Positions 4,627 to 31,920 of a stretch of DNA of 32,167 nucleotides are shown here, piece after piece. Under the pieces are notes generated by a model, which searched no databases, had not been told where the DNA came from, and was given only the letters and a program-made list of their open reading frames with translations. Both the position numbers and the translations under genes were made by a program. Origin of the DNA: Thermoplasmata archaeon (lineage in GTDB: Archaea; Thermoplasmatota; Thermoplasmata; Thermoplasmatales; Thermoplasmataceae); NCBI GenBank assembly GCA_021785735.1, contig JAJYEP010000008.1, positions 1 through 32,167 on the forward strand, read 5' to 3'. Every line of letters begins with the position of its first letter. Positions within the stretch are counted from its first letter, which is position 1.

Positions 4627-5406
4627 GTGAAAATTCATCTGCCCAGGGAACACGGGCTAACGGTCATATGGATTGTTGTCTTTCTTCTTTCTATTCTGGT
4701 CTCGAAGCGGCATTCATACTATGGGATATTTACGCTCGCTTTCCTGATCCCTTCCCTCTTCATTTACGATCCTTTCATCTCAGCCCTCAGATTGTGGTCC
4801 TCCGGAAAGAATGTAAAAATATACCTGCGAAAAAATTACCCTTATGTTGTTATCTTGCCGTTGGCAATTCTTCTGTGGTTCATCTTCGGCATATTCTTTG
4901 AAAAATTTCCGCCCCTTTCTCTGTCGATCTTTCTTGCCATCGCGGCGCTCTATTTCTTTTCATTTTATACTGGAGAAAGAAAGTTTTCCTCGATGATACT
5001 GTCAGTATCTGCCATCACATCGCTCCTGCTCCTCATGGTATCCGCCTTTGATCTTGATCTGAGCAGTTCGGAGATAAGGTTGTTTCTAGCCTTGTCGGCA
5101 AGTGAAATCCTCATCGCAGCAGGGCCTCATGAAATCATGCAGTCAAGAATTCAAAAATACAATTATGTTCATGGTTATCTTTTCGGAATAGTGCCTGTTT
5201 ATCTGGCTGCTGTACTAATATTGATCTTTGGTTTGATGGCCTCGAATATTATTATGACGGCACTGTTTCTGATCCTTCTAACTTTGATTCTGCTTTCTTA
5301 TCTGCTGATTAAAGACTTGCAAATTAAGAAAATAGGGATCGTTGTTGCTGTTTACAACCTGGTTGTCCTGATGTCGTTTGCATTTTTCCTCTTTGCATCG
5401 GTTTGA
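4627..5406 (+). CDS. YwiC-like integral membrane protein
   Basis: 259 aa, multiple TM segments, N-terminal KIHLPREHGL motif typical of the YwiC-like family; GTG start. Confidence 0.65.
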   Translation: MKIHLPREHGLTVIWIVVFLLSILVSKRHSYYGIFTLAFLIPSLFIYDPFISALRLWSSGKNVKIYLRKNYPYVVILPLAILLWFIFGIFFEKFPPLSLSIFLAIAALYFFSFYTGERKFSSMILSVSAITSLLLLMVSAFDLDLSSSEIRLFLALSASEILIAAGPHEIMQSRIQKYNYVHGYLFGIVPVYLAAVLILIFGLMASNIIMTALFLILLTLILLSYLLIKDLQIKKIGIVVAVYNLVVLMSFAFFLFASV

Positions 5407-5454
5407 TCTAATAAAAATGCAAAACCAATTATAGTGTGTTTGGCATGTGCGTAT

Positions 5455-6303
5455 ATGGCATTGGAAGCAGTCGAGGTATTACTCGGTTTTATTCTGTTCA
5501 TCCTGATAATAATAATGCTATCGGGATTGCACATTCTTAAGGAATGGGAAAGGGGAATTGTACTGACTCTTGGGCGGTATGGAGGAATAAAGGGACCCGG
5601 AATAATCTTTGTGACCCCTATAATAAGCAAGGTGACAAAGGTCTCCACAAGAATTCAGGCAGTGGCATTCAAGTCCGAAGCATCGTTTACAAAGGACAAT
5701 GTTCCGGTAAACATAGATGCGGTTATGTATTTTCAGATCATTGATCCACAGAAAGCGATACTCAACATTGAAAATTATACGATTGGAACCAACCTTTCCG
5801 CACAGACCACCATAAGGGAGGTCGTGGGAAAGTCGTCTTTTGATGATGTACTGTCAGAGCGTGAGAAAATTGCCGAATCAGCAAGAGAGATAATTGATGA
5901 AAAGACTGAGCACTGGGGGATCAAGGTCTCGGCTGTGGAGATTAGGGATGTGATTGTTCCGCAGTCTCTTCAGGAAGCCATGTCAAGACAGGCCTCTGCC
6001 GAGAGGGAAAGGAGATCAAGGGTCACGCTTGCCATTGCAGAGGTGGAAGCTGCACAGAAAATGGTTGAGGCTGCACTTCAGTATACAACCAATCCCATCG
6101 CATTCCAGCTGAGGTGGATGAACATACTTTACGAGATTGGACTGGAAGGGAAGGGCACCCTGATGATGATACCTATAAATGCGATGCCGGCCGGTGACAT
6201 GACCAATCCGTTGGGTACGCTGGGACTGAAATCCGTCGCAGACACTCTCAGGGGCAATATAAGCGCACAGACCCAGAAGGATAACTCAAACAAGCCAGCT
6301 TAG
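5455..6303 (+). CDS. Stomatin/slipin, SPFH (band 7) membrane protein
   Basis: N-terminal TM followed by LKEWERGIVLTLGRYGGIKGPGIIFVTPII..STRIQAVAFKSEASFTKDNVPVNIDAVMYFQI...SAVEIRDVIVPQSLQEAMSRQASAERERRSR. ORF track starts at GTG 5434; ATG 5455 is the likely start. Confidence 0.9.
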   Translation: MALEAVEVLLGFILFILIIIMLSGLHILKEWERGIVLTLGRYGGIKGPGIIFVTPIISKVTKVSTRIQAVAFKSEASFTKDNVPVNIDAVMYFQIIDPQKAILNIENYTIGTNLSAQTTIREVVGKSSFDDVLSEREKIAESAREIIDEKTEHWGIKVSAVEIRDVIVPQSLQEAMSRQASAERERRSRVTLAIAEVEAAQKMVEAALQYTTNPIAFQLRWMNILYEIGLEGKGTLMMIPINAMPAGDMTNPLGTLGLKSVADTLRGNISAQTQKDNSNKPA

Positions 6304-27325: not shown

Positions 27326-28261
27326 TTATAACTTCCCCTGACTCTGTGTCCGCTTTGATCTTACGTTAGTTAGAAGATCGACGTTTGTGTAAAATGCCTT
27401 CCCTCTTGATAGATTCCCGTTGCCATTTCTGGAGTTGTTATCCGGGTAGTATCTTACAAATGTGGGATTTCCAAATATTTCCCTGAAGTAGTCAACGCCA
27501 AGGTTCAGATTCATTAGAAATTTTCCCTGCAGCTTACCTATTACAGATTTTATATCTGTGAAGTCATTCTTTGTAAAATTGTAATTATACCATTGTTTTC
27601 CAACATATGGAGGATCAAGATAGAAGAATGCTTCCGGGCTGTCGTACTTTTTTATCAAATCCCTGAAATCCATGTTTTCAATCTTCCAACTTCTGACCCT
27701 ATTTTCTATCGCTGCAAAATTTTCCAGAGTTTTACTTACAAACCGCTGAACTGATTTTTCTCTTGTGGTTGCATAGGTTTTTCCCATTCCTCCAAAGCTT
27801 GAGCTGAACTTGTAAATTGTGTATACAGATCTTTCCTCGATTGTCGGAAGCCTGCCCTGCCATTTTCTGGTCCTGTGTGCAACATTCGGAATAGACTGTC
27901 GATAGGACTCCCATTCCTCTACGTATTCAATCAGACCCCTATCGCTTTGATTTCCTGCTCCATGACCGTTTGACTTCCTCATTCCTTTTGATGCGTGAGG
28001 CTGTTGAAGATAACGCGAAATTTGGGATAGCAACTTCCTGGTTTCATTTGGCTTCTCCTGAATTGCCCTGAACATTTCTGCAAGTTCGATTTCATAATCG
28101 TTATACACATTCATTTCTGCCTTGACGTTAAGGGAGACAGAACCGGATCCGCCAAAGACATCAACCATCATTCTCAAACCGGACATTCTGAAGACCCTGT
28201 AAATCTCAGGGATCAGAACATTTTTTGCACCAGGATATTTTATGAGTCTCAAAAGAGCCAT
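27326..28261 (-). CDS. D12-class (Dam-like) N6-adenine DNA methyltransferase
   Basis: N-terminal LIKYPGAKNVLIPEIYRVF, SAM motif MVDVFGGSGSVSLNV, YNDYEIELAEMFRAI, catalytic FFYLDPPYVGKQWYNYNF. Confidence 0.9.
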   Translation of the reverse strand: MALLRLIKYPGAKNVLIPEIYRVFRMSGLRMMVDVFGGSGSVSLNVKAEMNVYNDYEIELAEMFRAIQEKPNETRKLLSQISRYLQQPHASKGMRKSNGHGAGNQSDRGLIEYVEEWESYRQSIPNVAHRTRKWQGRLPTIEERSVYTIYKFSSSFGGMGKTYATTREKSVQRFVSKTLENFAAIENRVRSWKIENMDFRDLIKKYDSPEAFFYLDPPYVGKQWYNYNFTKNDFTDIKSVIGKLQGKFLMNLNLGVDYFREIFGNPTFVRYYPDNNSRNGNGNLSRGKAFYTNVDLLTNVRSKRTQSQGKL

Positions 28262-28947: not shown

Positions 28948-29973
28948 TTACTTTTCCAGACCAATACTGTTGATTATCCTACCCGAGTTACCGTCTATCA
29001 CCAGTGAAATGGCGTTGTTCTTGTGAACGAACTTCGCAAACCAGACCGGCACGTGAAGCAACTCTGCATCTCCCACATCATCCTGGGTTGAGATTTTTTG
29101 TACCATGTGATAACGCTGATGAACCTTGTCACTTTGCAACTGATCCACAAAGGTCTTTGCCTGATATTTGGCTGAATCCTCACTTATATCCCCATTAAGC
29201 ACTTTTATTCCCTTTGGTATTTTGGAGACATCAAAAACTACTCTGCTTGTGAGATCGAAGGAATAGTCTTTTGGCTGATAGCTGAGCAGTCCTTTAACAG
29301 CAACTACGGGATAATTGTAATTCTGGTCAAGGGTATTTGATCTCAGGTTTCCCCTTCCACCTCCCATTCCACCCATCATCATGCCGCCCATCATGGCTCC
29401 ATCCATCATGCCGATTCCCATGCCCATGCCACGTCCTCTTCCTCCCCCCATTGCGCCACCCATCAGACCCATTAGCATGGCAGTTCCCGCTATGGATCCT
29501 ACCTCAGATGCCTCACTAACATAGGTATATTGCGTTCTTGCTGAAACAGGGACTATCACATAGGGAATGTATGCGAGATTCATTCCCTCGTTTTTTGATT
29601 CTTCCTCGAGATGCTTTCTTAGTAAACCTCTATCCATATAATCCTTTAAAATAGGGACAAGGGAATCACTTGTTGGAATTTTGAGAGGCAACATTGTGTG
29701 CTTTGACATGCTTTTCCAACCGTCATTGTTGAGAGTTATGCTTGCTCCACAATATTCACATGTAATAATCATCTCTCCAAGCTGCGGTTTTATTGGTGCT
29801 CCGCAGCTGGGACACTTTAGTTCCTGCACCTGATTTGATGCAATCACCGGTCGACTATCGCCTGGCTGAGAAGAAGTCTGCACCTGCGTTACCGGAGTGC
29901 CAATTTTGTATCCGCATTTAGGACAAAATTCCGAGTCGTCTGCTATCTGAGCTCCACACTTTGCACAATACAT
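28948..29973 (-). CDS. Zinc-ribbon protein with TFIIB-type ribbon and Gly/Met-rich segment (YdjG-like)
   Basis: MYCAKCGAQIADDSEFCPKCGYKIG, LKCPSCGAPIKPQLGEMIITCEYCGASITL, Gly/Met-rich stretch, C-terminal LLHVPVWFAKFVHKNNAISLVIDGNSGRIINSIGL. AAGGTGATC upstream of ATG 29973 supports this start over GTG 29982. Confidence 0.85.
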   Translation of the reverse strand: MYCAKCGAQIADDSEFCPKCGYKIGTPVTQVQTSSQPGDSRPVIASNQVQELKCPSCGAPIKPQLGEMIITCEYCGASITLNNDGWKSMSKHTMLPLKIPTSDSLVPILKDYMDRGLLRKHLEEESKNEGMNLAYIPYVIVPVSARTQYTYVSEASEVGSIAGTAMLMGLMGGAMGGGRGRGMGMGIGMMDGAMMGGMMMGGMGGGRGNLRSNTLDQNYNYPVVAVKGLLSYQPKDYSFDLTSRVVFDVSKIPKGIKVLNGDISEDSAKYQAKTFVDQLQSDKVHQRYHMVQKISTQDDVGDAELLHVPVWFAKFVHKNNAISLVIDGNSGRIINSIGLEK

Positions 29974-29983
29974 AATGATCACC

Positions 29984-31150
29984 TTAGAGTTGCTTACCGC
30001 AATTTGGACAAAACTTGGTACCTTTTGGAGATTCCACGCCGCAACTGGGGCATTTTATCTTTTCAACCTCGAGAAGTGTTCCGCAGTTAGGACAGAATTT
30101 GGTTCCAGCAGGCGATTCTGTTCCACATTTTGGGCATTTTATGGTTCCCTGCTGTTGCTGACTTTGCAGCGAAGTACCACAGTTCGGACAGAATGCTGCT
30201 GTAACAGGAACAATGGTTCCACACTTTGGGCACTGTTTTGTCTGTGACTGCTGCAATCCGGATGACATTCCTCCCATCATCTGGCCGCCCATAGCGTATC
30301 CCATTCCTGCCCCGGCTCCAAGACCAATACCTATCCCAGCTCCTGCTCCTGCAACTCCAGTAGGATTTTTTGCTGCATCCACCATTGCCTCACCTGCCTG
30401 AAGCTGCAGATAGTTCACTCCAAGAACTGACATCTCTGATCTCTTGTCCACTGCTTTTTGAACTTCATCTGGCAGGTTAATGGTCAATCCTGATAGTTTG
30501 TTGATTTCAACCCCATACTGTGCGAACTGATCCGGTGCAGTTGCCAGAACGACCTGTTCTATATTGAGAAGATTAGCCGGTATATCAGTAACTTTCAATC
30601 CCTGGTCCTTCATTTTGCCGAGCGCATTATATACGAGAATAACCATCTGTTCCTTCAACCTTGAATCCACCTGGTCCGATGTCTCAACATTAAAGGTTCC
30701 CACAAACTGGTTTATGAAGTTTTCCGGATTCGATATTTTCCACCTGTATTCCCCATACACTTTTAAATTTACAACCCCAAAAGTTGGATCGTTGAACTGG
30801 TAAGATTGCGTGCTCCCGAACTTTCCGTCTAGAAATCTCCTCTGAATATAGTAAACTTCGGCCTGCTGTTGAACTCCTGTAAAAAATTTCAGTAGTCCCT
30901 GAACAACAGGCGCGTTGAAATCGGTTAGAGCATATCTGTTCGGCTGATCAAAGTACGTAAGAACCTTCCCGTCTCTAAAAAATACTGCGGTTTCATCCTC
31001 TCTTACCACGATATTGTCGTTGAATCTTATCAGACGGGGGACTTTCCACATTATGTTCCCTTCCTTGTACTGAGTTTCCCAGGCAATGGTTATGGATCCT
31101 GCCACACTTCCGCCTTTATCTGGAATGTTCTTTGATTTTTTTCCAATCAT
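29984..31150 (-). CDS. SPFH-domain protein with three C-terminal zinc ribbons (YdjI-like)
   Basis: MWKVPRLIRFNDNIVVREDETAVFFRDGKVLTYFDQPNRYALTDFNAPVVQGLLKFFTG...VVNLKVYGEYRWKISNPENFINQFVG, then Gly-rich linker and three CPxCG..FCPNCG modules. Confidence 0.9.
   Translation of the reverse strand: MIGKKSKNIPDKGGSVAGSITIAWETQYKEGNIMWKVPRLIRFNDNIVVREDETAVFFRDGKVLTYFDQPNRYALTDFNAPVVQGLLKFFTGVQQQAEVYYIQRRFLDGKFGSTQSYQFNDPTFGVVNLKVYGEYRWKISNPENFINQFVGTFNVETSDQVDSRLKEQMVILVYNALGKMKDQGLKVTDIPANLLNIEQVVLATAPDQFAQYGVEINKLSGLTINLPDEVQKAVDKRSEMSVLGVNYLQLQAGEAMVDAAKNPTGVAGAGAGIGIGLGAGAGMGYAMGGQMMGGMSSGLQQSQTKQCPKCGTIVPVTAAFCPNCGTSLQSQQQQGTIKCPKCGTESPAGTKFCPNCGTLLEVEKIKCPSCGVESPKGTKFCPNCGKQL
29987..30244 (-). 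repeat. Three tandem double-CxxC zinc-ribbon modules encoded in the SPFH gene
   Basis: CPKCGTIVPVTAAFCPNCGTSL / CPKCGTESPAGTKFCPNCGTLL / CPSCGVESPKGTKFCPNCGKQL, spaced about 26-33 aa. Confidence 0.85.
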
Positions 31151-31710
31151 TTCTGTCCACCCCCAGAAATCAATATGTTTTCAACTGTCTCCAGTCTCTT
31201 CTCCCAGTTAGTACGAACCTGGAATATCAAATCTTCCATCGTCTTCGTAATATTCCTCATAGCGCCTGAATCTTTACTGTCTGTATTTTGTAACTGCCCA
31301 GATTCTTCATCTATTTTTGAAGCTGAATCCAGGAAAGCCAGATCATATTGGTAAAGCGACTTAAGTTTGGATTCGTCTATCCTGACAGCCGGGGAAATAC
31401 CCGTATACCCCTGTGCAGAATGAAGAATCTCTCCATCAAGCTGCTGAAGTTTGGATAAAACTGAACCAATCAGTGTTAGATTTTGAAAATTTCCATCGCT
31501 GGCCAGATCACTTCTTACGGATTGCAACTTTGCGATTGAATTATTCAGATTCTCAGAGACCTGTTTTCTTAGTAAGGCATCTGCAACCCTCAGGTCATCG
31601 CCGATCCTGTATTCCTTGAATCCCGGTATATGCAATTGGATCTTTTTTATTATGCCTCGGTTATCTTCAACTACGTTTCGTATATCCGGGTTTGGGTTGC
31701 CTGACTGCAT
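31147..31710 (-). CDS. Predicted alpha-helical/coiled-coil protein, first gene of the SPFH operon
   Basis: 187 aa; IQLHIPGFKEYRIGDDLRVADALLRKQVSENLNNSIAKLQSVRSDL...; stop overlaps the SPFH gene start (ATGA). Confidence 0.8.
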   Translation of the reverse strand: MQSGNPNPDIRNVVEDNRGIIKKIQLHIPGFKEYRIGDDLRVADALLRKQVSENLNNSIAKLQSVRSDLASDGNFQNLTLIGSVLSKLQQLDGEILHSAQGYTGISPAVRIDESKLKSLYQYDLAFLDSASKIDEESGQLQNTDSKDSGAMRNITKTMEDLIFQVRTNWEKRLETVENILISGGGQK

Positions 31711-31920
31711 TGAATGTCGATCTCCATCATGTTAGTTGAGAATATATAATTATGCGGTCTTATAATAACTGGTGTGACGTTTCTCCTGCATCAGAATATA
31801 AATTTGATATAAAAGTCGTTACTGATGAATTCCCATTTCTTTGGACGATATTGAATTTTATCACTAAACGAAAGAATAAGAGCGTTTCCTTCGGTTATGA
31901 AGCTCGTCCATTCTCAACGG

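Follow-up and report, generated by a model that had tools for sequence, protein, structure and literature searches.

The stretch of DNA analysed here (the window; 32,167 nucleotides from a Thermoplasmata archaeon) contains three genes, all on the minus strand, which encode in this order a helical protein, an SPFH protein and a protein with two zinc ribbons (Table 1). An earlier note on this DNA had described three co-directional genes with an ATGA overlap between the first two, a spacing of about 10 nt before the third and a ribosome-binding motif in front of it, and each of these features was confirmed. In the mechanical ORF list the ribbon gene begins at a GTG codon at 29982 (344 aa). However, nearly every homologue starts at the Met of the sequence M(Y/F)C.KCG, and for this reason the ATG at 29973, separated by 10 nt from the SPFH stop codon, is likely the true start. 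The TATA-like box upstream of the operon and the GGAG before the helical gene would fit a single transcript for all three genes. The Rfam and tRNA scans gave no match.

Table 1. Features of the three-gene operon (positions in the window; residue numbers refer to the encoded protein).
Feature	Position	Strand	Length, basis or remark
TATA-like box TTATATATT upstream of the operon	31741..31749	-	Read from the sequence; putative promoter element
GGAG before the helical-gene ATG (31710)	31725-31722	-	Read from the sequence
Helical gene	31710-31147	-	187 aa; sequence and ORF list
ATGA overlap of helical stop and SPFH start	31147..31150	-	Read from the sequence
SPFH gene, YdjI-type (Band_7_1)	31150-29984	-	388 aa; PF13421, E 4e-32
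Gly-rich hydrophobic segment GVAGAGAGIGIGLGAGAGMGYAMGG, SPFH residues 262-300	30251..30367	-	Conserved in the SPFH alignment
Three C4 zinc ribbons, SPFH C-terminus (residues 303-387)	29990..30244	-	PF12773, PF13240 and PF13248, three stretches each
Ribosome-binding motif AAGGTGATC before the ribbon gene	29977..29985	-	Overlaps the SPFH stop codon
Ribbon gene (YdjG-like)	28948..29973	-	341 aa from ATG 29973; hhalign to bacterial YdjG-like proteins
Two zinc ribbons of the ribbon protein (residues 6-26 and 57-81, GTG numbering)	29740..29967	-	PF13240, PF13248, PF12773
Gly/Met-rich low-confidence insert in the core (residues 158-212)	29347..29511	-	pLDDT below 50 over residues 160-209
C-terminal half of the YdjG-like core	28963..29346	-	Ends where the bacterial proteins start their transmembrane helix

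Elsewhere in the window, the gene at 5434-6303 on the plus strand encodes another SPFH protein, of the classical stomatin type (PF01145, E 2e-37), and the gene just upstream of it (4627-5406, plus strand; 259 aa, no Pfam match) is a candidate NfeD-like partner. The gene at 27326-28261 on the minus strand encodes a D12-class DNA adenine methyltransferase (PF02086, E 7e-20), possibly an orphan, as a scan of its immediate neighbours showed no restriction enzyme. At the contig end (31897-32167, plus strand) SRP54 begins, and this gene resumes at the start of another contig (C4) of the same genome.

The SPFH protein matched Band_7_1 over residues 41-241 with 111.9 bits against a gathering score of 24, and its identity to homologues across archaea was 60-88%. 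Bacillus subtilis was among the control genomes with PF13421 matches, and the archaeal SPFH profile found the Enterococcus SPFH protein of an SPFH-YdjG-TPM operon (E 1e-29). The earlier description of the protein as a YdjI-like SPFH-zinc ribbon protein was borne out by the Band_7_1 domain and the C-terminal ribbons, although three ribbon units are present instead of one. The peak hydropathy of its Gly-rich segment was 1.28, which is lower than in a typical transmembrane helix. The SPFH tree followed the phyla, with Nitrososphaerota forming one clade nested among Thermoplasmatota. Horizontal transfer of the SPFH gene was also considered, and a tree with so long an outgroup branch gives no direction for it.

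When the archaeal ribbon-protein profile was aligned by hhalign with six bacterial YdjG-like proteins, the match extended over 298 columns (probability 99.2%, E 2.4e-19). The genes of those proteins come immediately after SPFH genes, on plasmids of Paracoccus, Vibrio, Comamonas, Tsukamurella, Pseudorhodobacter and Enterococcus. This profile match indicates that the likeness to YdjG proposed in the earlier note reflects homology to the bacterial YdjG-like proteins through most of the chain. The six proteins were collected partly with what we take to be the sequence of B. subtilis YdjG, which served as a lead and not as evidence; a cloning primer given in PMC8581546 is consistent with its N-terminus. 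The AlphaFold2 model of the ribbon protein showed a confident ribbon-plus-core structure with a disordered Gly/Met insert, which is smaller in some distant homologues (e.g., loci L072-L080). The core was covered by no Pfam family, and Foldseek retrieved nothing below E 0.7; YpeB, named as a relative of YdjG by Ravi et al. (PMC11237479), appeared only at E 5.6. All six bacterial proteins carry a C-terminal transmembrane helix (peak 19-residue hydropathy 2.0-2.8), whereas this helix is missing from the archaeal proteins, none of the 37 reaching a hydropathy of 1.6. The term "TFIIB-type" ribbon can be retained only in the sense of a broad fold, since PF08271 was matched at E 0.045, under the cut-off; weak TFIIB-ribbon matches were detected in 8 of the 37 homologues.

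The helical protein had no Pfam match above the cut-off. The NCBIfam profile NF047596 (LIMLP_15305), named after a Leptospira protein, matched it over nearly the full length (E 3e-8, 33.7 bits), yet far below the curated cut-off of 210 bits, and the same profile matched all 44 aligned archaeal members, again below the cut-off. This points to a distant relative of the uncharacterised LIMLP_15305 family, and not to a member of it. The AlphaFold2 model (pLDDT 86, pTM 0.81) consists of an N-terminal helix, mildly basic (mean +1.8), and a four-helix bundle. The highest conservation in the aligned family was observed between K22 and D44 (KK.QL.IPG..YR...D.R..D), with the signature K22..PG..YR...D.R..D44. 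No homologue was found on bacterial plasmids, and the open-access papers searched contained no description of a helical partner of SPFH proteins.

The earlier note had staked its proposal on the gene order being kept in related genomes. We observed this order throughout: at each of the 163 scanned loci that hold both genes, a set in which some genomes occur twice, the SPFH gene was immediately preceded by the helical gene on the same strand. The median gap was 2 nt, and the two genes overlapped by 1 or 4 nt at 40 of 161 loci. None of the outcomes that the note had named as refuting its proposal was encountered. The scan with the SPFH protein yielded 80 loci from Thermoplasmatota, Nitrososphaerota and a few other archaea, and the genome searches a further 30, about 110 in total, in which some genomes count twice. 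All 110 of these loci had the helical gene and nearly all had the ribbon gene, the partial or missing cases including truncated contigs. Since the same genes stand in the same order at about 110 archaeal loci, the cluster is not a chance arrangement. The ribbon gene was directly downstream of the SPFH gene at 99 of 116 loci and upstream at 12. Many loci have one to three YdjG-like ribbon proteins beside the helical-SPFH pair, the distant ones carrying two or three such genes (e.g., L144, L163 and L164). A fourth conserved gene was sought among the neighbours and none was found, the commonest further family being present at 19 of the 80 loci.

The pairing was also evident when the two proteins were searched for genome-wide, independently of neighbourhood. 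In the 61 related genomes, strong SPFH matches and the helical profile were found in the identical 33. In the phylum of Nitrosotalea devanaterra (121 genomes) the helical protein was detected in 67 genomes, of which 66 had a strong PF13421 match, in comparison to 0 of the 54 helical-negative genomes; the Fisher test of this association (P = 6e-34) ignores shared ancestry, and none of these counts is phylogenetically corrected. Among 80 mostly distant helical loci, an SPFH gene was adjacent by profile at 54, and at 12 more a divergent SPFH gene was adjacent or within about 1 kb (Pfam confirmed all four tested), which gives 66 of 80. Thus, by order, spacing and co-occurrence, the helical protein and the YdjI-type SPFH protein are a near-obligate pair in the sampled archaea. 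The exceptions include a weak helical paralogue that stands alone in seven genomes, all from one family (L187-L193); it adjoins a ribosomal protein L15e-like gene and lacks an SPFH neighbour. Within the family of the source organism the module is patchy (15 of 37 genomes) and it is absent from both sampled congeners; therefore, it is not essential. An empty-site comparison with the congeners met a rearranged region upstream of SRP54 in one (G001) and a contig end in the other (G002). At 10 loci in the phylum of Nitrosotalea (L158, L160, L155, L161 and others) the pair is followed by a gene for a small hydrophobic, probably membrane protein, which is a candidate anchor.

The operon had been described as lacking PspA, and this held true. 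PspA is not encoded in the operon, and none of the 61 related genomes had a PF04012 match over the cut-off, the only trace being one weak sub-threshold match in an unrelated long frame; the same search gave a match in 9 of 14 control genomes, and the source genome is 77% complete. The YdjH-type TPM protein (PF04536) was likewise detected in 0 of the 61 relatives, with matches in 8 of 14 controls. Hydropathy revealed no classical transmembrane helix in the helical, SPFH or ribbon protein. As for ESCRT-III, Snf7 was found over the cut-off in 9 of the 61 relatives, one of them helical-positive. Snf7 was accordingly rarer in genomes with the helical-SPFH pair (1/33 versus 8/28; P = 0.009 overall and 0.056 within the family, kinship uncorrected).

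The closest known system is pspA-ydjGHI (ydjFGHI) of B. subtilis, where PspA requires YdjI to reach the membrane and YdjG and YdjH are the membrane anchors (PMC8581546). Both systems possess an SPFH protein with C-terminal zinc ribbon (YdjI), a double-ribbon protein with a conserved core (YdjG) and a tight operon headed by a helical protein. However, the archaeal operon has neither PspA nor the TPM protein YdjH, its order is helical-SPFH-ribbon, the helical protein is unrelated to PspA, and the YdjG-like protein is devoid of the C-terminal transmembrane helix. Consequently, a membrane-anchored complex cannot be carried over from the bacterial model. The archaeal operon is similar to the bacterial pairs of Paracoccus, Vibrio, Comamonas and Tsukamurella (and of Enterococcus, with TPM) in that the SPFH gene is followed by a YdjG-like gene and PspA is missing from the loci inspected. 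Because such PspA-free pairs are known in bacteria, the lack of PspA by itself is not new. The bacterial loci differ in that no helical partner was found there and that their ribbon proteins have a transmembrane helix. One Paracoccus plasmid operon (L126) adds genes for a TelA-type toxic anion resistance protein and a DUF2927 protein to the pair. Archaeal ESCRT loci with Meth_adaptin (PMC10936438) also combine an archaeal SPFH protein with a zinc ribbon (SPFH-coiled-coil-zinc-ribbon) in a membrane-remodelling setting, but they contain Vps4, ESCRT-III and adaptin-like genes, none of which is present in the three-gene operon. In the literature examined, SPFH proteins are described with NfeD-type proteins, PspA, TPM and ribbon proteins as their partners (PMC2636767, PMC11237479, PMC9239133).

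Taken at even odds, our reading is that the operon encodes an SPFH scaffold complex on the cytoplasmic side of the membrane, a PspA-free variant of the SPFH-YdjG kind that would help to maintain or repair the membrane. The SPFH protein would oligomerise at the inner membrane face like other SPFH proteins, and the helical bundle would dock on the SPFH domain, probably through the conserved motif KK..IPG.(R/K).YR..(E/D)D.R..D. The helical protein may thus be a client or effector gathered by the scaffold, as YdjI gathers PspA in B. subtilis, and the ribbon proteins may act as adaptors that couple further partners. As none of the three proteins has a transmembrane helix, any contact with the membrane would have to be made by the SPFH oligomer, by the Gly-rich stretches or by way of an unknown receptor. 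A role of the complex in membrane maintenance or repair is suggested by analogy. The wider proposal that the helical family is a general archaeal partner of YdjI-type SPFH proteins, a membrane-acting protein of non-ESCRT-III type that does the job of PspA, appears rather doubtful to us.

Since the regulation of proteases and the assembly of complexes are also among the tasks of SPFH proteins, membrane repair is one of several options. The SPFH and zinc-ribbon proteins could instead be an archaeal member of the pairs of this kind that are widespread in bacteria and act as a chaperone or protease modulator of a client complex, unrelated to membrane stress, with the helical protein as a dedicated assembly subunit. 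We regard this as somewhat unlikely, though more probable than the other alternatives. In its favour, chaperone-like roles in assembly have been proposed for Band-7 and TPM partners (Ravi et al. 2024, PMC11237479), the bacterial plasmid pairs do without PspA, and the archaeal proteins do without transmembrane helices. At the same time, no protease or client gene is consistently adjacent, as is seen from the low frequency of the top further neighbour family. It is improbable that the module is regulatory, with ribbons that bind DNA, RNA or RNA polymerase and an SPFH protein that tethers a transcription factor. A DNA-binding role was suggested for the ribbon of YdjG (Popp et al. 2022, PMC9239133), and the weak TFIIB-ribbon matches would agree with it; however, PF08271 stayed under the cut-off, and in the large conserved core of the ribbon protein no DNA-binding domain was recognised. 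The ribbons of the SPFH protein are of the same type, which would fit protein-protein contacts better.

The earlier note had placed the helical protein where PspA would be expected. As to position this is correct, but a PspA stand-in by descent was rejected by both sequence and fold, and it is very improbable that the protein is a highly diverged PspA/ESCRT-III member and the operon a cryptic pspA-ydj operon. Such a relationship could be seen in the first operon position, the all-helical structure, the mildly basic N-terminal helix and the scarcity of Snf7 in helical-positive relatives. However, hhalign of the helical profile with E. coli PspA gave a probability of 0.2% over 5 columns, the PspA Pfam family was not matched, and the PDB fold search returned nothing below E 0.001. 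Neither by profile nor by fold did the protein match PspA, Vipp1 or Snf7. The top 50 entries of the fold search contained one ESCRT-III structure (the Shrub fusion 5vo5, rank 41, TM 0.33), and the model has two short hairpins in place of the one long hairpin of ESCRT-III. An accessory defence or mobile stress island, to which the patchy presence in the family and the nearby D12 methyltransferase gene could point, is the least credible explanation, given that PADLOC matched none of the three proteins, the SPFH protein had no phage match, its tree follows the phyla with Nitrososphaerota as one clade, and no defence genes stood out among the neighbours.

The literature on acid adaptation of Nitrosotalea does not mention SPFH genes. 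The carriers of the module nevertheless include acidophilic lineages with cultured members, Nitrosotalea among them, in which membrane upkeep is of interest. The unstudied helical partner is the interesting part of the operon. The pairing gives the first functional context to an uncharacterised helical family distantly related to LIMLP_15305: wherever this family occurs in the sampled archaea, a YdjI-type SPFH protein can be expected with hardly any exception. If the helical family did take the place of PspA as a general archaeal partner, SPFH scaffolds would work with interchangeable effector proteins. Moreover, the SPFH-YdjG core is found in archaea in the absence of PspA, of TPM and of the usual membrane anchor, which implies that its basic job is separable from PspA.
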